Shown: one piece after another, positions 4,131 to 45,705 of the stretch | How the letters are laid out: each line of letters starts with the position of its first letter | Position numbering within the stretch: the first letter of the stretch is position 1 | Source: Turicibacter faecis | GTDB taxonomy: Bacteria; Bacillota_I; Bacilli_A; MOL361; Turicibacteraceae | Reading direction: 5' to 3' | Length of the DNA: 64,000 nt | Assembly (NCBI RefSeq): GCF_037076425.1 | Contig: NZ_AP028127.1 | Coordinates: forward strand, 1,456,001-1,520,000 | Program-made: the position numbers and the translations under genes | Notes under the pieces: model-generated | What the model was told of the DNA's origin: nothing | What the model saw: the letters and a program-made list of their open reading frames with translations, nothing else | Database searches by the model: none

Positions 4131-4300
4131 CTGTCCTTTTGCCTGAGAGATTGAGCAGTTTGCCTTGCCCCTTCGGCGCCTAAATCAATAGGTCTCTCCA
4201 GAGTTCCGTCCACTTTACAGTCCACACTTACAACTAAGTACCTGAGAGTATGACTCCTTCGGTGTTCCACTAAGGGAAGCTCTTCTATAAAGTTTCAACC
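4131..4300 (-). ncRNA. tandem glycine riboswitch
   Basis: Read on the minus strand, two similar aptamers follow each other. The first has GTGGAACACCGAAGGAGTC then CTCTCAGGTAC; the second has CTGGAGAGACC, GGCGCCGAAGGGGCAAGG and CTCTCAGGCAAAAGGAC. The paired CCGAAGG and CTCTCAGG blocks are the conserved core of glycine riboswitches, and two aptamers joined by a short linker is the classic arrangement. It is followed by a terminator and an AGCS symporter gene, a known partner. Confidence 0.92.
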
Positions 4301-4321
4301 GGTGTTTATTAATATATACCT

Positions 4322-4350
4322 ATTGTACCCCCCTCGCTATAAAAACGCAA
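4322..4350 (-). promoter_or_regulatory. promoter of the glycine riboswitch transcript
   Basis: Minus-strand TTGCGT (4345-4350), 17-nt spacer, TACAAT (4322-4327). Transcription would start about 10-15 nt before the first aptamer. Confidence 0.6.
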
Positions 4351-4412: not shown

Positions 4413-4722
4413 CCCCTTCGTTAGAACGGATAAAAATTAAAGTAGCGCCAACGATAATTAATAAGACCGGGACAACAAGTTCCGCAGATAATAAATTCCA
4501 ACTAGATAATAACAGGAGTCCTCCTACGGATAACCCTATAACATTCAAACGCTTCACCCCTTCTTCTAGGATGTTGCATAATGAAGGGACAATAATAAAC
4601 AATGTCCACCACCCGCAAAAGAAAAATTCAAAATTCCAAAGATGTAAGGAGTCACCCAAAAATCCGATTCCTACAGCAATGAGTAGGCACCCCCAAAACA
4701 TATCGATGCGACTTAATTTCAT
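4402..4722 (-). CDS. small membrane protein, LiaF/LiaI-type transmembrane domain
   Basis: About 106 aa with four closely packed hydrophobic stretches (around residues 8-22, 30-46, 60-75 and 80-98) and a short charged tail. The pattern, with a tryptophan-rich first half and a repeated hydrophobic pair, resembles the LiaI/LiaF-like transmembrane domain proteins (DUF5668 type) found next to envelope-stress regulators. No such regulator is adjacent here. GTG (4731) and ATG (4728) lie upstream; ATG 4722 is preferred because AGGGAG then stands 10 nt away. Assignment is by pattern only. Confidence 0.6.
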   Translation of the reverse strand: MKLSRIDMFWGCLLIAVGIGFLGDSLHLWNFEFFFCGWWTLFIIVPSLCNILEEGVKRLNVIGLSVGGLLLLSSWNLLSAELVVPVLLIIVGATLIFIRSNEGGGE

Positions 4723-12412: not shown

Positions 12413-12486
12413 TGGAGGCGCCAATCGGAGTCGAACCGATGCTCAGGGAGTTGCAGTCCCACGCCTTACCTCTTGGCTATGGCGCC
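12413..12486 (-). tRNA. tRNA-Cys (GCA)
   Basis: 74 nt, full cloverleaf on the minus strand: acceptor GGCGCCA/TGGCGCC, anticodon loop CTGCAAC, T-loop TTCGACT, CCA encoded. Third of four in the tandem cluster as transcribed. Confidence 0.95.
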
Positions 12487-12505
12487 TGTTTCTATTTTCT
12501 TTTAA

Positions 12506-12579
12506 TGGAGGCGCCAATCGGAGTCGAACCGATGCTCAGGGAGTTGCAGTCCCACGCCTTACCTCTTGGCTATGGCGCC
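12506..12579 (-). tRNA. tRNA-Cys (GCA)
   Basis: 74 nt, identical in sequence to the copy at 12413-12486, including the encoded CCA. The spacer between the two is 19 nt. Confidence 0.95.
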
Positions 12580-12597
12580 TTTTCTATTTTCTTTTAA

Positions 12598-12671
12598 TGG
12601 AGGCGCCAATCGGAGTCGAACCGATGCTCGGGGAGTTGCAGTCCCATGCCTTACCTCTTGGCTATGGCGCC
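12598..12671 (-). tRNA. tRNA-Cys (GCA)
   Basis: 74 nt, first gene of the cluster. It differs from the next two copies at the edge of the anticodon stem (26 A, 43 C) but keeps the GCA anticodon and CCA end. Confidence 0.95.
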
Positions 12672-36005: not shown

Positions 36006-36401
36006 TTAGTCCCGCAAATAGACGTCTACTTTAATTTTTAGCCAGCGGCCTTTCCATTCCTTCGATTTTAATTCTCCAAAAAGAAATTTTCCTCCGTCCA
36101 TTAAACGAGCGAATACTAAATTATCTCGCCTAGAGATATAGCCAATCTTATCGCCTGCGGGCGATTGAATAACAATGGCATAACTATCATGCGGATTAGT
36201 TGGTTCACGAAAAAAATCCAACCGACTCCCCACGTGTAGGGATGGTTCAATATCATTCATATTCTCAATATAGTGCGTCCCCGCCACCTGAATCTCAAGT
36301 AAAAAAATATCCCGTCCAAATGGCTTTATCGACGCCACCCTACGTCCTTTGGCGTGTAGTAACCTAATCATTCTAGCGAGTCTAACGATTATTTCCTTCA
36401 T
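36006..36401 (-). CDS. HIRAN-domain protein
   Basis: 131 aa from ATG 36401 (GGGGGAG site). After a basic helix, residues about 25-125 form a HIRAN domain: VAGTHYIENM, LHVGSRLDFFREPTNPHDSYAIVI, GDKIGYISRRDNLVFARLMDGG. The NPxDxxAI and GYIxR motifs are diagnostic. HIRAN domains bind DNA 3' ends in eukaryotic helicases; free-standing bacterial forms are thought to sense damaged DNA. It lies at the edge of the defence island on the same strand, but a terminator and its own promoter separate them. Confidence 0.85.
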   Translation of the reverse strand: MKEIIVRLARMIRLLHAKGRRVASIKPFGRDIFLLEIQVAGTHYIENMNDIEPSLHVGSRLDFFREPTNPHDSYAIVIQSPAGDKIGYISRRDNLVFARLMDGGKFLFGELKSKEWKGRWLKIKVDVYLRD

Positions 36402-36538
36402 GAGCTCTCCCCCATCAACTGCTTGATTCTCATTTGATAACTGCAAGTTACCACCTTATCACCCTAGTAAACGCGTGAAATAAAACAATAGGTCCACATG
36501 GCCTTTCCTCCATGATTCCACCCCTAAGTTTTTTCCTT

Positions 36539-36688: not shown

Positions 36689-36883
36689 TCAATCATTCAC
36701 AGTAAGATGTCGTAATTGACGAACTTCTTCAATTTCTACTCCCGTTGCTTTCGCAATCTGCTCATCATCTAAAACATCTAATAAATTCTTGGCAATTTCT
36801 CTATCGATTTGTTTCCTAACTTGTTCAAGCCCTTGCTTGACTCCCTTTTCAAACTCCCTTTTAAGGAGCTCATCTAATGTCAT
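36689..36883 (-). CDS. RpnS-like C-terminal protein, copy 3
   Basis: 64 aa from ATG 36883. It has the same GGAGGTGGAATAT-ATG-ACA start block as the other copies. The core IAKNLLDVLDD is shared with the full-length Rpn, while the segment before it (DELLKREFEKGVKQGLEQV) and the end differ. Upstream, in the stretch homologous to codons 188-199 of the nuclease, this copy has picked up TGA and other changes, so it can no longer be a fused C-terminus. The short frame from the internal ATG is fully kept. Probable role: binding to and blocking the nuclease, by analogy with E. coli RpnS. Confidence 0.7.
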   Translation of the reverse strand: MTLDELLKREFEKGVKQGLEQVRKQIDREIAKNLLDVLDDEQIAKATGVEIEEVRQLRHLTVND

Positions 36884-36991
36884 ATATTCCACCTCCAACC
36901 TTTTATCTTGCTTCATCCGGTTAACCCTATCATGTCACTGATGCATAGACTCAGATGTTATTTGAGCGATACTTTTGTTAGAGAAGATTCA

Positions 36992-37189
36992 TTAGTTTTC
37001 ATCTCGTATTCGTCGAACTTCCTCAATCGTCAATCCTGTTTTTAACGCAATCGTTTCGTCATCTAAAACATCCAATAAATTATGGGCGATTTCTACTTTT
37101 TCCTCTTCCTTTCCTTGTTCAATTCCTTGCTCAATCCCTATTTTAATGCCTTTTTGGAGTTCTCGTTCTTTAATCTCCAATAATGTCAT
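36992..37189 (-). CDS. RpnS-like C-terminal protein, copy 2
   Basis: 65 aa from ATG 37189 with the conserved GGAGGTGG site 8 nt upstream. Nearly identical to copy 1 except near the end (IRDEN against LRNEKNN). The start has MTLLEIKERELQKGIKIGIE, a longer Gly/Gln/Glu segment than in the full-length gene, then the shared KVEIAxNLLDVLDDETIAL core. The open frame also extends upstream to GTG 37252 over the homologous HQLHDR stretch, but that has no ribosome site. Confidence 0.72.
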   Translation of the reverse strand: MTLLEIKERELQKGIKIGIEQGIEQGKEEEKVEIAHNLLDVLDDETIALKTGLTIEEVRRIRDEN

Positions 37190-37292
37190 ATATTCCACCT
37201 CCAACCTTTTATCCTGCTTAATCCGATTGACCCTATCATGTAGCTGATGCACGAGTTCGGACTTTTTGGTGAGGGAGATTTTTAGAAAAAGA

Positions 37293-37496
37293 TTAATTAT
37301 TTTTTTCGTTTCTTAATCGCCGAACTTCCTCAATCGTCAGTCCTGTTTTTAACGCAATTGTTTCATCATCTAAAACATCCAATAAATTCTGGGCGATTTC
37401 TACTTTTTCCTCTTCCTTTCCTTGTTCAATTCCTTGCTCAATCCCTATTTTAATGCCTTTTTGGAGTTCTCGTTCTTTAATCTCCAATAGTGTCAT
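37293..37496 (-). CDS. RpnS-like C-terminal protein, copy 1
   Basis: 67 aa from ATG 37496 with GGAGGTGG 8 nt upstream. Residues about 31-60 (KVEIAQNLLDVLDDETIALK and on) match the C-terminus of the Rpn nuclease just upstream, whose stop codon lies about 105 nt before this ATG. The first 30 residues carry the alternative segment found in copy 2. The duplicated block begins at the nuclease codons for TKSELVHQ. No nuclease motif is present, so it cannot cut DNA; an RpnS-type inhibitor is the best guess. Confidence 0.72.
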   Translation of the reverse strand: MTLLEIKERELQKGIKIGIEQGIEQGKEEEKVEIAQNLLDVLDDETIALKTGLTIEEVRRLRNEKNN

Positions 37497-37601
37497 ATAT
37501 TCCACCTCCAACCTTTTATCCTGCTTAATCCGATTGACCCTATCATGTAACTGATGCACGAGTTCAGACTTTGTTGAGGGGGATTTTTATAAAAAAATCA
37601 A

Positions 37602-37778
37602 TTACTTATTTTCGTTTCGTAATCGTTGGACTTCTTCAATCGTCAGTCCTGTTTTTAACGCAATTGTTTCATCATCTAAAACATCTAATAAATTCTTGGC
37701 GATTTCTACTTTTTCCTCTCTTTTCCCCTCTATTTTTCCATCCTCAAATTCTTCTTTAAAAATTTCGTATAATGTCAT
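37602..37778 (-). CDS. internal RpnS-type gene inside the Rpn frame
   Basis: In-frame ATG 37778 (codon 215) preceded by GGTTGGAGGTGGAATAT, an optimal ribosome site 8 nt away, would give a 58-aa protein equal to the nuclease C-terminus. The same site and ATG are kept in all three downstream copies, so the site is unlikely to be chance codon use. Expression is inferred. Confidence 0.6.
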   Translation of the reverse strand: MTLYEIFKEEFEDGKIEGKREEKVEIAKNLLDVLDDETIALKTGLTIEEVQRLRNENK

Positions 37779-38420
37779 ATATTCCACCTCCAACCTTTTA
37801 TCTTGCTTAATCCGATTGACCCTATCATGTAACTGATGCACGAGTTCGGACTTTGTTTGAGCAACATATGTATCTGTTGAATTCTCAACATAGCTTAATA
37901 ATTCCTTCATCTCCTCGTCCACGTCATCCATAACCCCACGTGTATTTAAAAAGATTTTTGTTGTCTCATCATTTAATTTTAGCGATTGATCTTCTATACA
38001 ATAGTTTTCAAAACTGTAAATATGTCTCCCTTTGCCAAAAGGATCAAACGTGCAAATAAAGATGACAAAACTTTTACAAAGTTCTAAATAATCACTGCCC
38101 TTTTGAATAAAGTCCAAATCGACGCTTCCTTGATAATATCGACTCCTCTTCGCTAGGTTTTTATGTTTTCCTCTTTGCATCTCTACATTATAAATGGTTT
38201 CCTCTTCATCTTGAACATAAATGTCTAACCGAATCGCTTTACTCTCCATTACTAAATCAATGGACTTTTGGCTTTCCACAAATTTAATTTTTTTAATTTT
38301 AACCTTCAAAATCTTTTCTAGCACTTGCCGGCAAACTTCAGCATCGGAAAAGACCTTAGAAAACAAAAAGTCATCCGATAAATTTAATTCTTGTAACGTT
38401 CTTTTTCGTTGATAGGGCAT
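37602..38420 (-). CDS. Rpn-family PD-(D/E)XK nuclease (recombination-promoting nuclease, full length)
   Basis: 272 aa, full family length, with an AGGAGG site. N-terminal LSDDFLFSKVFSD, then the PD-(D/E)XK core: Asp66 in IRLDIYVQD, Glu80-x-Gln82 in YNVEMQ, and SRYYQGSVDLDFIQKG. Linker about 185-214, then the C-terminal oligomer segment. Family members are Mg-dependent DNA endonucleases linked to transposase_31/PDDEXK_2 and reported as toxic anti-phage proteins. Internal codon 215 is ATG with a strong ribosome site, matching the RpnL/RpnS arrangement of E. coli. It has its own promoter and lies downstream of a type I restriction system. Confidence 0.9.
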   Translation of the reverse strand: MPYQRKRTLQELNLSDDFLFSKVFSDAEVCRQVLEKILKVKIKKIKFVESQKSIDLVMESKAIRLDIYVQDEEETIYNVEMQRGKHKNLAKRSRYYQGSVDLDFIQKGSDYLELCKSFVIFICTFDPFGKGRHIYSFENYCIEDQSLKLNDETTKIFLNTRGVMDDVDEEMKELLSYVENSTDTYVAQTKSELVHQLHDRVNRIKQDKRLEVEYMTLYEIFKEEFEDGKIEGKREEKVEIAKNLLDVLDDETIALKTGLTIEEVQRLRNENK

Positions 38421-38507: not shown

Positions 38508-39071
38508 TTATTTTTTCATTTCAATCTTTGTTCGATTGATTTCTTCTACTATTGTCTTCACCTCTTCATCCCGCAAATCATCAATCCGTATCATGTTATG
38601 ATGGATTCCATTGAGCGATGTCCCTAACGAAATCCCTCTCTCTTCATCGATAATCCAAAATCGATCATGCAAGTTTTCAGAAGAATAGACTTTTATTTCA
38701 CATCCTACTTTTTGACTAATTGTGTTGTATAGGTTTTTATTATAGTTCTCCTCATTTATGACTACCGTTATCTCCTTAGGATTTAACCGCGTCAATACAT
38801 CAATCATTAAATCTTTATAGGGTTTATTAAAAGTGCCAAAGAAATAGGGGTCTATAATTAATAAACGACTCCCTGTGACCCCCTTACTCATTAAATAGGA
38901 AATCAGTTTATCTTTTCTTTCCTCCTTGCTCCCTACTAATATTTCGTGAGACACCTCCTGATTTCCCACAAATAAATCTTGATAGAAGCTCTCAACTGAA
39001 TGGAAGAGAAATCCACTATTATCTGTTCATACGATTCTTTGTTCAACAACATCGGGTAAAAATACATCCAT
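38508..39071 (-). pseudogene. PLD-like (MIT-C type) phosphodiesterase gene with in-frame TGA
   Basis: One frame of 188 codons begins at ATG 39071 (AAGGTG site) and is interrupted at codon 15 by TGA (39027-39029), where TGG (Trp) would restore it. The rest contains a phospholipase-D-like domain: LLIIDPYFFG, ITVVINEEN and ENLHDRFWIIDEERGISLGTSLNG, where HDR..SLGTSLN corresponds to the HxK/HxR..GSxN active site. The domain is often found in defence loci. Only one such motif is present. The part after the TGA could restart at GTG 38969 but has no ribosome site. Confidence 0.65.
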
Positions 39072-39210: not shown

Positions 39211-40461
39211 TTAAATAAACATTTGTTGTAACAACCCTTTTTTTAGTTTATTATAAGATTCCACCTTTAAAGATTCAAATTTAATCTTATTATCAATTTG
39301 GATTAATAAATCTGTTATTTTAATTTGCTCTTTTTCACACGGAATATTATACTTTATATCTTTTATGTCCTTTACATAAATATGCTTAATAGTTGTTCCT
39401 GAAACCTTTCTTATAATTAAAGATTTAAAATGATTAATTTGATAACTTAAAAATATACCATTTATATATTTCTTCGGTCTAAGAACATTTATGTCCCCCC
39501 CTAAACAAACATCGTCAACTAGAATACAACTTGCTGTAGCTAATCCTTCTGGTGTTACATCTGACGTAGGCATTAATACATCATATTTTTCAGACTTAAA
39601 CCCTTGATCTTTTAAACATCTACTTTTTACAACATTTATAACCTCATCATACTGTGTAAATAATTCACCATATAGTACACATGGAATATCCTCATTATCA
39701 GATAAGTCTGATTTACTTAACCCATTCCCTTTAAAAAACTCAACTATGTTTTCTAACTTTTTTTCTTCCCACTCAGGGTATTTCTTTCCATTCTCATCTT
39801 TAAACCTTAGTTCTTGTGAGAAGATTTTTTGCATGAGCCCTTTTTTATAATTCTTTAATTCTTCCACCTTTTCGGTTTGAAGTTCTATCTTTTTATCAAT
39901 TAAAGAAAAGAAAGAGGCTATTTTTTCTTGTTCCTCTATAGTAGGGACATAAAATTTCATTTGTTTTAATTCTGTTTTATTAAATTTAGGTTGACCACTT
40001 GCTCCGATTATTTGTACCAATTGTTTATGGAATGCTTTCGTATTAAATAAATAATATATATATTTTGTATTATTTATTTCACTTCTTAATAAAATTGCGT
40101 TTGGTCCCAAAACATTATTTTCACTTGGTAATTTCTCGGGTTCTACATAATAAGATTCTCCTATATTCGCACCTATATTAGGTAATATAATTGAATCTTC
40201 ATTCAGATTTACTCTATACAAAAAATTATATGCTTTTTCATCAACAAAGATAAAATCCTTATTATTAAAATTACTCTTTAAATCAATAGTTCTTACTAAT
40301 TGAGCGAAATTTTCACTATTGTAATAAGTTACACTATTTCTAATATTTTCAAAACTTCCTGCTGCAACGTAATCAGTAATTATATCACATATCTTTTCTA
40401 TTTTATTACTTTCCCACTCTCCACTAAACTCTTTAAATCTAAGATTTGGTACTTTTTTCAT
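39211..40461 (-). CDS. hsdS: type I restriction system specificity subunit HsdS
   Basis: 416 aa with the standard two-TRD layout. TRD1 about 1-160; first conserved helix region about 160-205 (PTIEEQEKIASFFSLIDKKI); TRD2 about 220-380; second conserved region at the end (KEQIKITDLLIQIDNKI ... LKKGLLQQMFI). It sets the DNA sequence recognised by the HsdM/HsdR complex. Visibly more AT-rich than hsdM and hsdR, as TRDs often are. AGGAGG site; 15 nt downstream of hsdM. Confidence 0.95.
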   Translation of the reverse strand: MKKVPNLRFKEFSGEWESNKIEKICDIITDYVAAGSFENIRNSVTYYNSENFAQLVRTIDLKSNFNNKDFIFVDEKAYNFLYRVNLNEDSIILPNIGANIGESYYVEPEKLPSENNVLGPNAILLRSEINNTKYIYYLFNTKAFHKQLVQIIGASGQPKFNKTELKQMKFYVPTIEEQEKIASFFSLIDKKIELQTEKVEELKNYKKGLMQKIFSQELRFKDENGKKYPEWEEKKLENIVEFFKGNGLSKSDLSDNEDIPCVLYGELFTQYDEVINVVKSRCLKDQGFKSEKYDVLMPTSDVTPEGLATASCILVDDVCLGGDINVLRPKKYINGIFLSYQINHFKSLIIRKVSGTTIKHIYVKDIKDIKYNIPCEKEQIKITDLLIQIDNKIKFESLKVESYNKLKKGLLQQMFI

Positions 40462-40476
40462 TGTATTCGCCTCCTC

Positions 40477-42021
40477 TTATAGACCTAGTTCTTTTAAGTA
40501 AGATGATAGTTCTTCGTCGACTTGGGCGATTTCTCGGTCAATTTCTGCAATGCGTTGGCTGACGGCCTGTAAATCGACGGGCTCTTCCTCTTCAAATGTA
40601 TCGACATAACGAGGGATATTTAAGTTGTAGTCATTTTCTTTGACTTCATCGAGTGTTGCCACATAAGAATATTTATCAATCATTTCACGATTTAAATACG
40701 TTTCGACGATTTTGTTCACGTGTTCTTCTGTTAAAACATTTTGATTTTTGCCTTTATCAAACTCATTGGACGCATCAATAAATAAAATATCTTCATTATG
40801 TTCACGGCATTTTTTGAACACTAAGATGACCGTTGGAATACTGGTTCCATAGAAAATGTTCGCCGGTAATCCAATGACGGCATCGAGGACGTTACGCTCC
40901 TCAATTAAATATTTACGAATGACCCCTTCAGCTGCCCCTCGGAATAAGACACCATGAGGGAGCACAACCGCCATCGTTCCTTTATCGTCTAACTGATAAA
41001 TCATATGTTGAATAAACGTAAAGTCCGCTTTTGATTTAGGGGCTAGTTTTCCATACGCACTAAAACGTTCATCATCTAAAAACTTCGCATCCCCACTCCA
41101 CTTCGCCGAATAAGGCGGATTGGCCACGATCGCCTCAAAACGTTCGTCTAAATGGTGCGGGTGCTCAATGGTATCATCGTTACGAATATCAAAATTCATG
41201 TAGTTCACGCCGTGTAATAACATGTTCATACGCGCTAAGTTATACGTCGTTGCCGTTAACTCCTGACCATAAAACTTACGAACATTCGCTTCACGCCCAA
41301 CACGTAATAATAAAGAGCCTGAACCACACGTGGGGTCATACACATTCTTTAAGTCTTTTTTACCAGCCGTCACGATTTTAGCTAAAATTTTAGACACTTG
41401 TTGTGGCGTATAGAACTCTCCCGCTTTTTTCCCGGCATTCGCCGCAAACTGACCGATTAAATACTCATACGCATCCCCTAACACATCAATTTCGGAATTT
41501 TCATAAGCAAATGGGATATCAGCAATATCCGCTATCACCTTTGCGATTAACGCCGAACGACTTTTTACATCACGCCCGAGTTTTGAAGACGTTAAATCCA
41601 TATCATCAAATAAATGGTCAAAATCTTGTTGACTTTCATGCCCAATCGTTGATTCCGTAATATTATTAATCGCCCCTTGCAACACTTCAATATCAAACGT
41701 ACGCTCTTCAATTAACCGAAGTAACGATGAAAATAAGTACTTCGGTTCAATGAAATATCCGATATCACTAATTAACTCCTCCGATAGCGCCTCACGATAC
41801 TCCTCATCTTGCCACGCCTCTTCATAACTAATTTCGTCTTCTTCTAATAACTTCGCCACCCGTTGCTCTACATTTTCCGATAAATAACGGTAAAAAATTA
41901 AACCTAAGATATAGTTTTTAAAATCATATGCCTCCATCGTTCCGCGTAACGTATTAGCAATCGACCATAAACGCGCATGTAAATCCGCCTGCTGTTGTTT
42001 TTGAATTTCACTCACTGTCAT
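40477..42021 (-). CDS. hsdM: type I restriction system methyltransferase HsdM
   Basis: 514 aa. N-terminal HsdM helical domain (LRGTMEAYDFKNYILGLIFYRYLS), then an adenine-N6 methyltransferase fold with the SAM motif YDPTCGSGSLLLRVG (about 228-242) and the catalytic NPPYSAKW (about 304-311). Methylates the host recognition site and is needed for restriction. AAGGAGG site; starts 1 nt after the stop of the single-TRD gene. Confidence 0.97.
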   Translation of the reverse strand: MTVSEIQKQQQADLHARLWSIANTLRGTMEAYDFKNYILGLIFYRYLSENVEQRVAKLLEEDEISYEEAWQDEEYREALSEELISDIGYFIEPKYLFSSLLRLIEERTFDIEVLQGAINNITESTIGHESQQDFDHLFDDMDLTSSKLGRDVKSRSALIAKVIADIADIPFAYENSEIDVLGDAYEYLIGQFAANAGKKAGEFYTPQQVSKILAKIVTAGKKDLKNVYDPTCGSGSLLLRVGREANVRKFYGQELTATTYNLARMNMLLHGVNYMNFDIRNDDTIEHPHHLDERFEAIVANPPYSAKWSGDAKFLDDERFSAYGKLAPKSKADFTFIQHMIYQLDDKGTMAVVLPHGVLFRGAAEGVIRKYLIEERNVLDAVIGLPANIFYGTSIPTVILVFKKCREHNEDILFIDASNEFDKGKNQNVLTEEHVNKIVETYLNREMIDKYSYVATLDEVKENDYNLNIPRYVDTFEEEEPVDLQAVSQRIAEIDREIAQVDEELSSYLKELGL

Positions 42022-42022
42022 G

Positions 42023-42607
42023 CTATTTTTCCTCCTTCAACGTTCGAATCATCCATTCATTCATTAACTTTTCTTCTAATCTTTGTTTTTCAATCCATAG
42101 TTTTTTTCGCTGATGACCTAATCGGTAAACCGTTGCTATTTTCTCCTGAGTTGCGACGCCTGGGAGATCAATCGGTAATTCCCTTATTTTTTGCATCGAT
42201 AAGGCTTGAAGACTTGAGCCTTGTCTTTCAACTGCTAACCGTCGTTGAATATCCGGATGCTCATTAAAATACCACGCCACATACTCGGGGCAAACCCCTT
42301 CGTGACATTCCAAATAAACAAAATTAATCGGAATCACGTACCCTTCATACGCATCTGTCACCACAAAGGCCCGAGGGGCCGTTAACCCAATCAAAACCAT
42401 TCCGACCTTTGCTAGTGGAACTTCTCGAATATATCGATCACTCACTAAAACTTCTTGGCCTTCTACCTGTAAATGAGGGTCTACTGTTACCTTATTTAAC
42501 TCTTGAATGGTAAACAATCGCCTTGGATAAGCTTTTTCATTCGGTTTTGCCTTAATACGAGCGAGCGTTGCTCCTATTGAGAGTTTACCCACTTCTTCTA
42601 GCTTCAT
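42023..42607 (-). CDS. single-TRD HsdS-like protein
   Basis: 194 aa, half the size of a normal HsdS. It holds one target-recognition domain (LEEVGKLSIGATLARIK ... ITLxP-like LPIDLPGVATQEKIATVYR) and one conserved helical arm ending KQRLEEKLMNEWMI. The arm is the part that binds HsdM. It sits between hsdR and hsdM in the same operon. It could dimerise to give a second specificity, tune the system, or be a duplicated remnant. Full HsdS is encoded further down. Confidence 0.82.
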   Translation of the reverse strand: MKLEEVGKLSIGATLARIKAKPNEKAYPRRLFTIQELNKVTVDPHLQVEGQEVLVSDRYIREVPLAKVGMVLIGLTAPRAFVVTDAYEGYVIPINFVYLECHEGVCPEYVAWYFNEHPDIQRRLAVERQGSSLQALSMQKIRELPIDLPGVATQEKIATVYRLGHQRKKLWIEKQRLEEKLMNEWMIRTLKEEK

Positions 42608-42695
42608 ACTTTTTCACCTGCTTTTCATACTAAAAGCATAACATATCACTCGAATAGTGTCAAAAGAAAAAGTGCTTTTGTTAAAAAAAGCACTT

Positions 42696-45446
42696 TTAAT
42701 TATATTTATTCGTATGATCCACAATAAATTCTTTCACTTTTTTGACCTTACGTTTTTTAGCTAACAATTTATCGACGACAGCGTCCGAAATTTCTTGATG
42801 ATTCAAAATACCCGCATACTGATACTCAGCCACAAATTCTTGAATGGTTTCCTCATTCAGGTTCACTTCCTCAGCAAAATATTTAACTTCTTCTTGTCGG
42901 GATTGTTCTTCAAACGCATAGTAAGCTTCGTCAATCGAATCTTCTGGCGACAACGTTGGAATCACTTTATTTAAGAAAGATTTTAATAAATCTACTTTTA
43001 GACGTAACTCCTCATTATCCGCTCGATCAAGTTCTGCTATAATCTCTTTAATATCTTCGTCACGCTGTTTTGTATCTGTTAAATCAATTTGACGAATCAA
43101 GTTCATGATATAGCTGACATTAATTTTATCGGTATGCATGATTTCAATACAAAAATCAAGATCGGCTAAAACAGACACCTTTTCTCCTTCGGCGCGTTTC
43201 ACCTCATCATAAATTAAGAAATACTTACTTTTAAAATCTTGGTACGTCTGCTCGGAAATCCCCACCGTCTCTTCATTAAACTCAAACTCCGTAAAGGTCT
43301 CAAGTTTCACTAAAGCCTTGGAAAGTTCACGGAAACTTAAAATAAATTGCCGTTTTTCTTCCTCGGTTTGAAGCCCATCCACCTCTTGTGGCGATTTAAC
43401 AAGCTCATACAAGCGATTTAACTCTGCCTCAAACAAATCTAAATAATAACTGTAACTTCGCATTAACACCGTATCTGTATTATTCGTATCCGAGAACAGG
43501 CGGATTGCATCATCCGTATTTTCTTTTAAATTACGATAGCAGACAATATTTCCATAAGGCTTCGTCGTTTTTTGCACGCGATTCGTTCGGGAATAAGCTT
43601 GCAATAAATCGTGATATTTTAAATTTTTATCAACATAAAGCGTATTTAACGTTTTCGCATCAAACCCTGTTAAGAACATATTCACGACTAATAAAATATC
43701 AATTTGAGCATTTTTCACCCGCTTCGAGACATCGGAAAAATAATTTGAAAACGTGTCGGTCGAATAATTCGTATGGAAAAGTTGATTATAATCAGCAATC
43801 ATCCGCTCTAAACTATCGCGCGAATGTTCATCACGCCCTTCACTGTCTTCATTCGCTCCAAATGTAAAGATCCCTGCAATTTTGAGACGATGATCCATCG
43901 CTTTAAATGCATCATAATATTTAATTAACATCGGAATACTTTGCACCGTAAAAATCGCCGTATATTCACGATTACGCGTTTTAGCGTCATGATTTGCGAT
44001 AATGTGTCGCGCGATTTCTTCAATACGCGTCTCATTCATAAAAACTTCATCCGTATTAATCGCATGAACCTTCGTATCATCCATTTCATCGTAATTTCCA
44101 CGAATCGTATTAATATACTCGACCGAAAAACCAAGGACATTTTGATCATTAATCGCATCTTTAATTAAATAATGGTGCAAACACTTTTCAAAAAGATCAG
44201 CTGTTACCCGCCCGTCCTGACTCTTATTCTCTTCAAAACGTGGCGTTCCAGTAAACCCGAAATATTGTGCCTGATGAAAATGTTTATTAATGGCTTTATG
44301 CATATCTCCAAACTGAGAACGGTGGCACTCATCAATAATAAAAATCACTTTCTCATTCCGATACTGGTCCATAATTTTTTCATACCGCGGGGACTTCACC
44401 GCATTCGCCATTTTCTGAATCGTCGTCACGATTAACGGACGGTTAATATCTTTAATTTGTTGAACCAATTTATCCGTTTTATCCGTCGTATCCACAGAAT
44501 CCGGTTCAAATTTATTAAACTCCTTAATCGTTTGACTATCTAAATCTTTACGGTCAACTAAAAAGAAGACTTTCTTAATCCCTGGTTCATTCGCCAAAAT
44601 CTGACTGGCCTTAAATGAAGTTAACGTCTTCCCACTCCCTGTCGTATGCCAAATAAAACCATTATTATTTGTCTCAAGGGCACGTGTCACCAACGCCTCT
44701 ACCGCATAAATTTGATAAGGCCGCATGACCATTAATAATTGATCCGTTTCATTAATCACCATATAACGCGCAATAATCTTCGAAATTTGACACTTTTCCA
44801 AGAACGTAAACGCAAAATCGCCCAATTGACTAATCCGCTCATTATTCACATTCGTCCAAAAGAACGTTTGACTATACATCAATTCCTTATCCGTATTGGC
44901 AAAATACTTCGTGTCAACCCCATTACTGATGACAAAGATTTGGATATAGCGGTAAAGACCTTGATAGGAATGCTTGCGATAACGATCAATTTGGTTAAAC
45001 GCCTCCTTCATATCTAGTCCGCGTCGTTTCAACTCAATTTGAACAACGGGTAACCCGTTAATTAATACCGTTACATCGTAACGATTCGTATATTTTCCAA
45101 CAACCGTCGTTTGAGCCGTCACTTGAAATCGATTTTTACACCAATGCAAGCAATCAAAAAATTCTAAGTAAATTTCAGAACCATCCTCGCGTTCAAGCAC
45201 AAACTTATCCCTTAAAATTTTCGCACTCTGGAAAACACTCTTCCCTTCTACATGGCGCATGACGCGTTCAAACTCTTTATCCGTTAAAGGGACACCGCCC
45301 AATTTTGACTCATTATGGAGTGATAACTGCTTTCTAAAATTTGCGACTAACTGCTCTTCGTCCGCGATACTGACCTTTTCATACCCCAAATCGCACAATT
45401 GAGCAATCAATTGTTTTTCTAATTCTGCTTCGCTTTGATAAGACAT
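42696..45446 (-). CDS. hsdR: type I restriction system endonuclease/translocase HsdR
   Basis: 916 aa from ATG 45446 (ATG 45449 and TTG 45452 are alternatives; GGGGG site). N-terminal PD-(D/E)XK nuclease with VVQIELKRRGLDMKEAFNQI, then a superfamily 2 motor: Walker A WHTTGSGKTLTSF, DExx box FIIDECHRSQFGD, motif III FGFTGTP, and late motifs LLVVNMFLTGFDAKTLNTLY and YSRTNRVQK. A helical C-terminal domain follows. All catalytic motifs look intact, so restriction is likely active. First gene of the operon hsdR, single-TRD, hsdM, hsdS. Confidence 0.96.
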   Translation of the reverse strand: MSYQSEAELEKQLIAQLCDLGYEKVSIADEEQLVANFRKQLSLHNESKLGGVPLTDKEFERVMRHVEGKSVFQSAKILRDKFVLEREDGSEIYLEFFDCLHWCKNRFQVTAQTTVVGKYTNRYDVTVLINGLPVVQIELKRRGLDMKEAFNQIDRYRKHSYQGLYRYIQIFVISNGVDTKYFANTDKELMYSQTFFWTNVNNERISQLGDFAFTFLEKCQISKIIARYMVINETDQLLMVMRPYQIYAVEALVTRALETNNNGFIWHTTGSGKTLTSFKASQILANEPGIKKVFFLVDRKDLDSQTIKEFNKFEPDSVDTTDKTDKLVQQIKDINRPLIVTTIQKMANAVKSPRYEKIMDQYRNEKVIFIIDECHRSQFGDMHKAINKHFHQAQYFGFTGTPRFEENKSQDGRVTADLFEKCLHHYLIKDAINDQNVLGFSVEYINTIRGNYDEMDDTKVHAINTDEVFMNETRIEEIARHIIANHDAKTRNREYTAIFTVQSIPMLIKYYDAFKAMDHRLKIAGIFTFGANEDSEGRDEHSRDSLERMIADYNQLFHTNYSTDTFSNYFSDVSKRVKNAQIDILLVVNMFLTGFDAKTLNTLYVDKNLKYHDLLQAYSRTNRVQKTTKPYGNIVCYRNLKENTDDAIRLFSDTNNTDTVLMRSYSYYLDLFEAELNRLYELVKSPQEVDGLQTEEEKRQFILSFRELSKALVKLETFTEFEFNEETVGISEQTYQDFKSKYFLIYDEVKRAEGEKVSVLADLDFCIEIMHTDKINVSYIMNLIRQIDLTDTKQRDEDIKEIIAELDRADNEELRLKVDLLKSFLNKVIPTLSPEDSIDEAYYAFEEQSRQEEVKYFAEEVNLNEETIQEFVAEYQYAGILNHQEISDAVVDKLLAKKRKVKKVKEFIVDHTNKYN

Positions 45447-45705
45447 CATCAAGCCCCCTTATTTTAATCGTCTCCCTTACCACCCACATCATCGCTAGAT
45501 TGGCATAAGAGAAATTAAGCTTTTCTACATTAACTAACCTTTTTTTCAGTCACTTTATATTTAATATCGACAAAATAATAAAATTTACTCTAAATTCCTA
45601 TTTATCCTTCACCTAAATAGGCCCTACCATAATTCTTATACTAGTGTACCACAAAAGTAATAAAAATTTAAGATTCCAGTGTTCTCTGCACCTTTTTAAC
45701 CTCAA

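Follow-up and report, generated by a model that had tools for sequence, protein, structure and literature searches.

An Rpn nuclease gene of Turicibacter faecis with a probable internal start for an antitoxin, followed by stand-alone copies of its tail with other repeat lengths

Judging from its sequence, the Rpn nuclease gene of Turicibacter faecis described here very probably makes its own antitoxin out of its own tail, by means of a second start placed within the nuclease frame. We analysed a stretch of 64,000 nucleotides (NCBI RefSeq assembly GCF_037076425.1, contig NZ_AP028127.1, positions 1,456,001 to 1,520,000 of the forward strand), hereafter the window, in which this gene and, in tandem behind it, three further copies of the tail span 38420 down to 36689 on the minus strand. 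The explanation that sequence and analogy together make highly probable is a gene within a gene, rpnL with an rpnS that starts at Met215, followed by three stand-alone rpnS duplicates that should not be cognate to the nuclease beside them. Ribosomes would load at an in-frame GGAGG and start at Met215, giving a 58-residue RpnS equal to the nuclease's C-terminal tail. If E. coli is a guide, this RpnS would pair with the same tail in full-length RpnL and keep the enzyme inactive. The three downstream genes would have arisen through tandem duplications that took in both the tail and its start signal, each being translated from its own copy of that signal, and they would represent either a reserve of alternative tails or antitoxins directed at other alleles.

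This mechanism has been described before, in Rpn genes of E. coli and C. difficile, and the window locus is a further case of this RpnL/RpnS kind; the initial annotation, which proposed an internal start from the letters of the sequence, was right. All five E. coli rpn genes, when tagged, make a C-terminal RpnS from an internal start (Zhong et al., 2023, PMC10327210). One C. difficile rpn gene, cloned in E. coli, likewise yields RpnS; the start mutants tested no longer make it, and RpnL is blocked by RpnS (PMC10327210). For RpnC, inhibition is obtained only with an RpnS of equal four-residue repeat number, while stand-alone rpnS copies follow rpnE and, in part of the strains, also rpnC; loss and fusion of rpnS have been noted too (PMC10327210). 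The window shares with these systems an Rpn nuclease, an internal Shine-Dalgarno (SD) sequence with a start, a small predicted C-terminal product, four-residue repeats past the start and a defence neighbourhood, here of type I restriction-modification (R-M). Activity and binding are known from E. coli, and it is from the published relatives that we infer translation, binding, inhibition and phage defence in T. faecis. To the published mechanism the present work adds a comparative test, with start-site nucleotides under selection across about 160 genes.

The full-length nuclease, RpnL (37602..38420, minus strand; 272 aa, PD-(D/E)XK), belongs to Rpn by curated score: in a profile search its ORF, 38420-37602, matches TIGR01784 with 120.5 bits (cut-off 52.1) over residues 16-266, and PF12784 with 50.4 bits (cut-off 27.4). 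Asp66 and Glu80 (numbering converted by hand), which we take to be the acidic, presumably catalytic residues of the PD-(D/E)XK fold, are kept in 99-100% of the tail-bearing genes. The protein is of the PF12784 branch, unlike the E. coli Rpn proteins, which the abstract of PMC5350276 gives as YhgA-like, PF04754. DUF4351 (PF14261), a label found on stand-alone RpnS in some species only (PMC10327210), gave no Pfam row at E up to 1 for the nuclease or for any of the four tail ORFs. PADLOC returned no hit for the nuclease, its full-length sequence matched none of the solved structures, and a plasmid search produced eight records, none with at least 60% identity.

The predicted start signal resides in GGTTGGAGGTGGAATATATGACA, a 23-mer with four exact occurrences in the window, all on the minus strand (37773-37795, 37491-37513, 37184-37206 and 36878-36900). 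Allowing up to three mismatches still retrieves only these four, and 100 shuffles gave no match at all. One occurrence sits at codon 215 of the nuclease and one before each of the three C-terminal tail copies, which bears out, in four cases out of four, the claim that the SD-ATG string at this codon is repeated identically in every downstream copy. Inside the nuclease frame the GGAGG core occupies 37787..37791 (minus strand), 8 nt before the ATG at 37778-37776, which is codon 215 of the ORF; the six codons before it and the ATG itself do read R L E V E Y M, and the segment 37602-37778 singled out by the initial annotation is the RpnS part of the nuclease. An internal ribosome site with its start, the sequence signal that marks an RpnS, is thereby predicted for this gene. 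On the same strand no sigma-70-like promoter was detected upstream of the internal start, the results of the promoter and terminator scan being not above chance.

The intragenic tail (unit 1, 37602..37778, minus strand) has 58 aa from the internal ATG and a weak C-terminal match to TIGR01784 (24.7 bits, under the cut-off). On the same strand follow stand-alone unit 2 (37293..37496, 67 aa, GGAGG at 37505..37509), unit 3 (36992..37189, 65 aa, GGAGG at 37198..37202) and unit 4 (36689..36883, 64 aa, GGAGG at 36892..36896), these minus-strand SD cores being located by the 23-mer search. Counting from the Met to the conserved core, NLLDVLDDE.IA, which closes the variable part, units 1-4 measure 25, 33, 33 and 29 residues, that is, steps of four; all of them carry, soon past the start, the four-residue repeats of varying number that characterize RpnS. 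When aligned, the units display 38 columns, 6 of them variable, followed by a block of 30 columns without any variation in which SD and ATG lie, and past this block 44 of 60 columns are variable, with length steps of 12 nt. Exact identity of the four signals had been taken to point to selection for internal translation. As sufficient proof we reject it: the flanking block is nearly as conserved (the 6 in 38 variable columns), and identity among four copies is weak evidence by itself because they are tandem duplicates. What does stand is selection at the level of the nucleotides, visible in relatives, which on sequence grounds provide the stronger argument for the start signal.

Among eight genomes of the same order, three, including that of the window, had a match, and widening the search to 395 sampled genomes of the class led to the same three. 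This set is too small for a codon test, which therefore rests mainly on 80 loci, mostly from Lachnospiraceae and otherwise from other Clostridia, and on further genomes. Once overlaps were removed, 189 of 213 loci were kept (they are designated by L numbers below), L002-L004, which are further views of the window, being skipped. They held 200 nuclease ORFs, 26 of which, without [YFWH][MV] at the site, were set aside; in the resulting 174 the internal start codon is ATG 171 times and GTG twice. Three of these genes run off the end of a contig and 171 are closed, 12 of them with tails of fewer than 35 residues. The intact set, defined by a closed end and a tail of at least 35 residues, comprises 159 genes, the window gene counted in, with 83 cluster representatives after clustering at 70% identity.

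An SD duplex with a dG of -6 or below is present in 157 of the 159 intact genes (the two exceptions are L062 and L164) and in 81 of the 83 representatives, in agreement with an earlier run on a smaller set (66/67). The mean SD-anti-SD duplex energy of the intact genes is -10.35, as against -6.93 in synonymous shuffles. Among 157 genes in which the motif was located, its distance from the start is 8 nt in 75 and 9 nt in 66. Less synonymous variation had been expected over the seven codons that precede the ATG. At codon -4 the answer is a clear yes, while the expectation does not hold across all seven. Among representatives, Glu at codon -4 is written GAG in 32 of 33 cases (background 39%, p about 2e-12) and Arg is written AGG in 36 of 38 (background 20%, p about 1e-22). 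The bias at codon -3 is weaker (GTG 15/23, CGA 8/15; p 1e-3 to 8e-6), lesser ones (p 0.001 to 0.013) appear at -8 (AGC for Ser), -6 (GAA) and -1 (TAT) and, past the start, at +1, +2, +3 and +5, and none appears at -2, -7 or -9.

Could the SD-like sequence be a pause signal, or the mere consequence of a constraint on the peptide LEVEYMT, internal translation being absent? The peptide itself is constrained, since the Tyr-Met pair is conserved even in truncated genes that are devoid of the SD, and the Glu of codon -2, used as a control, leans towards GAG in the full redundant set (58 vs 41, p 3.7e-5). This lean is gone in the representatives, however (26 GAG, 28 GAA), and the bias at codon -4 far exceeds that at the other codons. 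Unlike peptides, furthermore, spell the identical motif: GGAGG is written, one base apart, by W-R in 51 genes, M-E in 32 and L-E in 22. The same signal also precedes stand-alone ORFs that have no nuclease frame to obey. A pause or a peptide constraint without internal translation is, in view of this, very improbable, and the internal start remains our reading of the site.

The 12 truncated but closed genes have a mean dG of -4.72, to be compared with -4.47 in shuffles, and two of them reach -6 or below. They make only three clusters, mostly from one clade, and one of them, L006, is a broken gene from a different branch of Rpn, so that few independent losses of the SD are represented. In four loci (L049, L050, L053 and L146) the nuclease is cut shortly behind the start site, and about 870 nt downstream there is a stand-alone RpnS which is of the type of another genome. 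As for the seven other Rpn genes of the genus (L005 and L007-L011 from the same genome, L014 from a congener), their internal starts are weaker, the best in the last 120 codons being -7.4 at a TTG (L007) and -7.2 at an ATG that lies 43 residues short of the end (L005). Not every Rpn, therefore, need use an internal start, and the mechanism may belong to this branch instead of to all Rpn. The six further Rpn genes of the same genome lack the Tyr-Met site, and several of them carry the tail core.

None of the three stand-alone copies in the window has the repeat length of the intragenic tail, from which they differ by one or two four-residue repeats. Because the repeats differ, and if the specificity rule of RpnC applies, units 2-4 should not neutralise the adjacent nuclease. 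The arrangement is like that of rpnE-ypaA in E. coli, where a stand-alone tail with its own SD and ATG lies directly past the nuclease gene, except that the E. coli stretches read have one stand-alone copy and the window has three. A match to rpnE occurs in 5,371 E. coli genomes. We read this pair in K-12 and in 26 further strains chosen by hand, 14 from the 40 rows of one spread listing and 12 from the 60 rows of another: 22 of the 27 strains have both modules, two the stand-alone one only and three the intragenic one only. In all 22 two-module strains, representing 15 distinct sequence pairs, the repeat length of the copy is unlike that of its neighbour; K-12 has 23 and 27 residues to the core, a difference of one repeat. 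Pairing the E. coli lengths at random would give zero matches with a P of 0.08 to 0.11, and these data therefore speak against matching, not for avoidance; an active avoidance of equal repeat numbers is unsupported.

Outside E. coli, 42 ORFs with tail similarity were reduced to 14 copies at 11 loci (the window's three, L012, L021, L023, L028, L029, L033, two at L036, L037, L045 and L192), on the basis of an ATG with an SD dG of -5.6 or below and of an upstream nuclease with an intact tail. We excluded copies beside a broken or truncated nuclease, copies with an absent start or a weak SD (L075 is one such), ORFs that form part of a longer one, and L032, which is broken. L192 was counted though doubtful, lying 1041 nt from the nuclease within a longer open frame. 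The 14 copies are not 14 independent events, because several have common flanks; one of them (L012) matches its neighbour, nine have another length and four another tip type. For eight of the 13 differing copies the most similar tip in the nuclease of another genome, this tip being the best of many, has an equal total length; the stand-alone copy of L028, for example, is 90% identical to the tip of L023 and of equal total length.

That the stand-alone copies supply extra doses of cognate antitoxin to the adjacent nuclease would fit well with their location directly downstream of it and with the upkeep of SD, ATG and open frame; it would also fit the single stand-alone copy of the congener L012, as long as the intragenic tail, and one must remember that the repeat-number rule is established for RpnC only (PMC10327210). 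Yet the repeat length is unlike in three out of three window copies and throughout the two-module E. coli strains, 13 of the 14 copies from outside E. coli (the window's three included) differ in length or tip type, and L021 and L029 keep nearly the same stand-alone copy next to intragenic tails that have one and three repeats, respectively. We hold this explanation to be unlikely. In the loci read, stand-alone copies rarely agree with the neighbouring nuclease in repeat length or in type of tip, as far as sequences tell, and this pattern fits stored alternative tails, not extra antitoxin. The systematic mismatch may be new here: no statement on it, or on exchange, was seen in the main text of PMC10327210, and a search at the level of titles and listings found no literature on systematic mismatch or on tip exchange in Rpn. 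In these loci, copies that were until now noted as second copies nearly always differ from the adjacent nuclease in repeat length or tip type, K-12 included, which raises a testable question: is a stand-alone RpnS an inhibitor of the nucleases of other strains, or a store for tail switching?

The copies might of course be doing nothing. Functionless, dying duplicates would be expected to leave such traces as L032, which looks frameshifted, or the congener L013, which has only a decayed remnant, and in K-12 the NCBI annotation makes ypaA a pseudogene and RpnE inactive; the P of 0.08 to 0.11 for zero matches by random pairing in E. coli is on this side as well. Codon differences between copies cut both ways. 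Units 2 and 3 differ by 7 synonymous and 3 nonsynonymous codons out of 65 (dN 0.020, dS 0.226), and this mostly silent pattern points to selection acting on the protein. Other stand-alone pairs are mixed: 8 synonymous and 3 nonsynonymous codons in L023 vs L049, 0 and 1 in L049 vs L053, and 2 and 6, hence more nonsynonymous than synonymous, in L045 vs L037, as decay would have it. Unit 4 has lost its upstream frame, closed by an in-frame TGA at 36935..36937 (minus strand), 18 codons upstream of the ATG, and therefore this ATG, or another start past the TGA, must serve; despite the broken frame the unit keeps its SD, its ATG and an intact 64-codon frame. YpaA of K-12, when tagged, is detected (PMC10327210). 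With the silent differences of units 2 and 3 and the integrity of unit 4 against it, general decay is quite unlikely, and we keep to rpnS genes that are probably functional and non-cognate.

How tails might be exchanged can be glimpsed from other loci. Fourteen nucleases carry two unrelated tips. Their nuclease parts have 87-98% identity from one tip type to the other and 87-100% inside a type; identity between the tips of the two types averages 25%, with a range of 12-44%, and in the closest pair with unlike tips the join lies just past the start helix. In L023 and L028 some 2.2 kb of sequence upstream of the gene can be aligned, and their tips are swapped, what is intragenic in one being stand-alone in the other, with 88-89% nucleotide identity across; that this is the same site rests on the upstream side, because the downstream flanks do not align beyond the array. 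Identity between L021 and L029 is 93% across 4.7 kb, and their stand-alone copies differ by one silent codon, beside intragenic tips of one and three repeats. In the three E. coli strains with a single, intragenic module, the nuclease ends in a C-terminus typical of stand-alone copies. We tentatively propose, as a possibility to which we would give somewhat less than even chances, that the unit is a self-contained cassette comprising SD, ATG, repeat helix and tip. Recombination between repeated start blocks would change the tip fused to the nuclease, and the displaced tip would remain as a stand-alone inhibitor of other alleles. A newly fused tip would instantly supply the matching antitoxin, because each cassette brings its own start signal. 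If this were true, alternative toxin-antitoxin specificities would be kept in reserve by the tail array.

Orphan immunity genes are known from contact-dependent and Rhs polymorphic toxins, in which displaced C-terminal tips are kept downstream of the one in use. The window array is comparable, with putative old or alternative tips, inhibitor included, kept downstream of the tip in use; in polymorphic toxins, by contrast, tip and immunity are separate genes, while here one sequence would be both nuclease tail and antitoxin. Another parallel is found in EcoR124I and EcoR124II, where the number of four-residue repeats sets a specificity, namely the gap in the DNA site (PMC10327210); in Rpn, repeat number is thought to set the choice of partner instead.

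An AlphaFold model of unit 2 has helices at residues 3-38, 44-51 and 55-66 (mean pLDDT 87.4, pTM 0.54). The three-helix fold with a long first helix that this model predicts is in line with the description of RpnA-S (PMC10327210). Foldseek and VIA-align placed TrpR and other helix-turn-helix proteins in the top rows, with Z up to 5.6, a resemblance that may be merely that of a common helix arrangement. By sequence, unit 2 had no convincing match to solved structures, and the solved structure of RpnA-S (7TH0) was absent among the matches listed for it by sequence, Foldseek and VIA-align.

The neighbourhood looks defence-like, because type I R-M genes found by PADLOC adjoin the nuclease on the same strand (HsdR at 42696-45452, HsdM at 40477-42021 and HsdS at 39211-40461, all minus), together with a weakly PLD-like ORF at 38508-38969, which has a GTG start and scores below the Pfam cut-off. 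A short ORF, 38936-39067, overlaps the start of the latter and could represent its N-terminus in a shifted frame. The type I R-M region, 39211-45452, also includes an additional specificity-like ORF of half size (42023-42607). Just downstream of the array, at 36006-36446, there is a HIRAN-domain protein (58.2 bits, cut-off 24.7). In L021, terminator-like hairpins can be recognized by eye past the nuclease (4300-4340) and past the stand-alone RpnS (4560-4595), and the stand-alone copy may therefore need read-through or a promoter of its own. Elsewhere in the window, at 12413-12671, stand three tandem tRNA-Cys genes with an identical anticodon.
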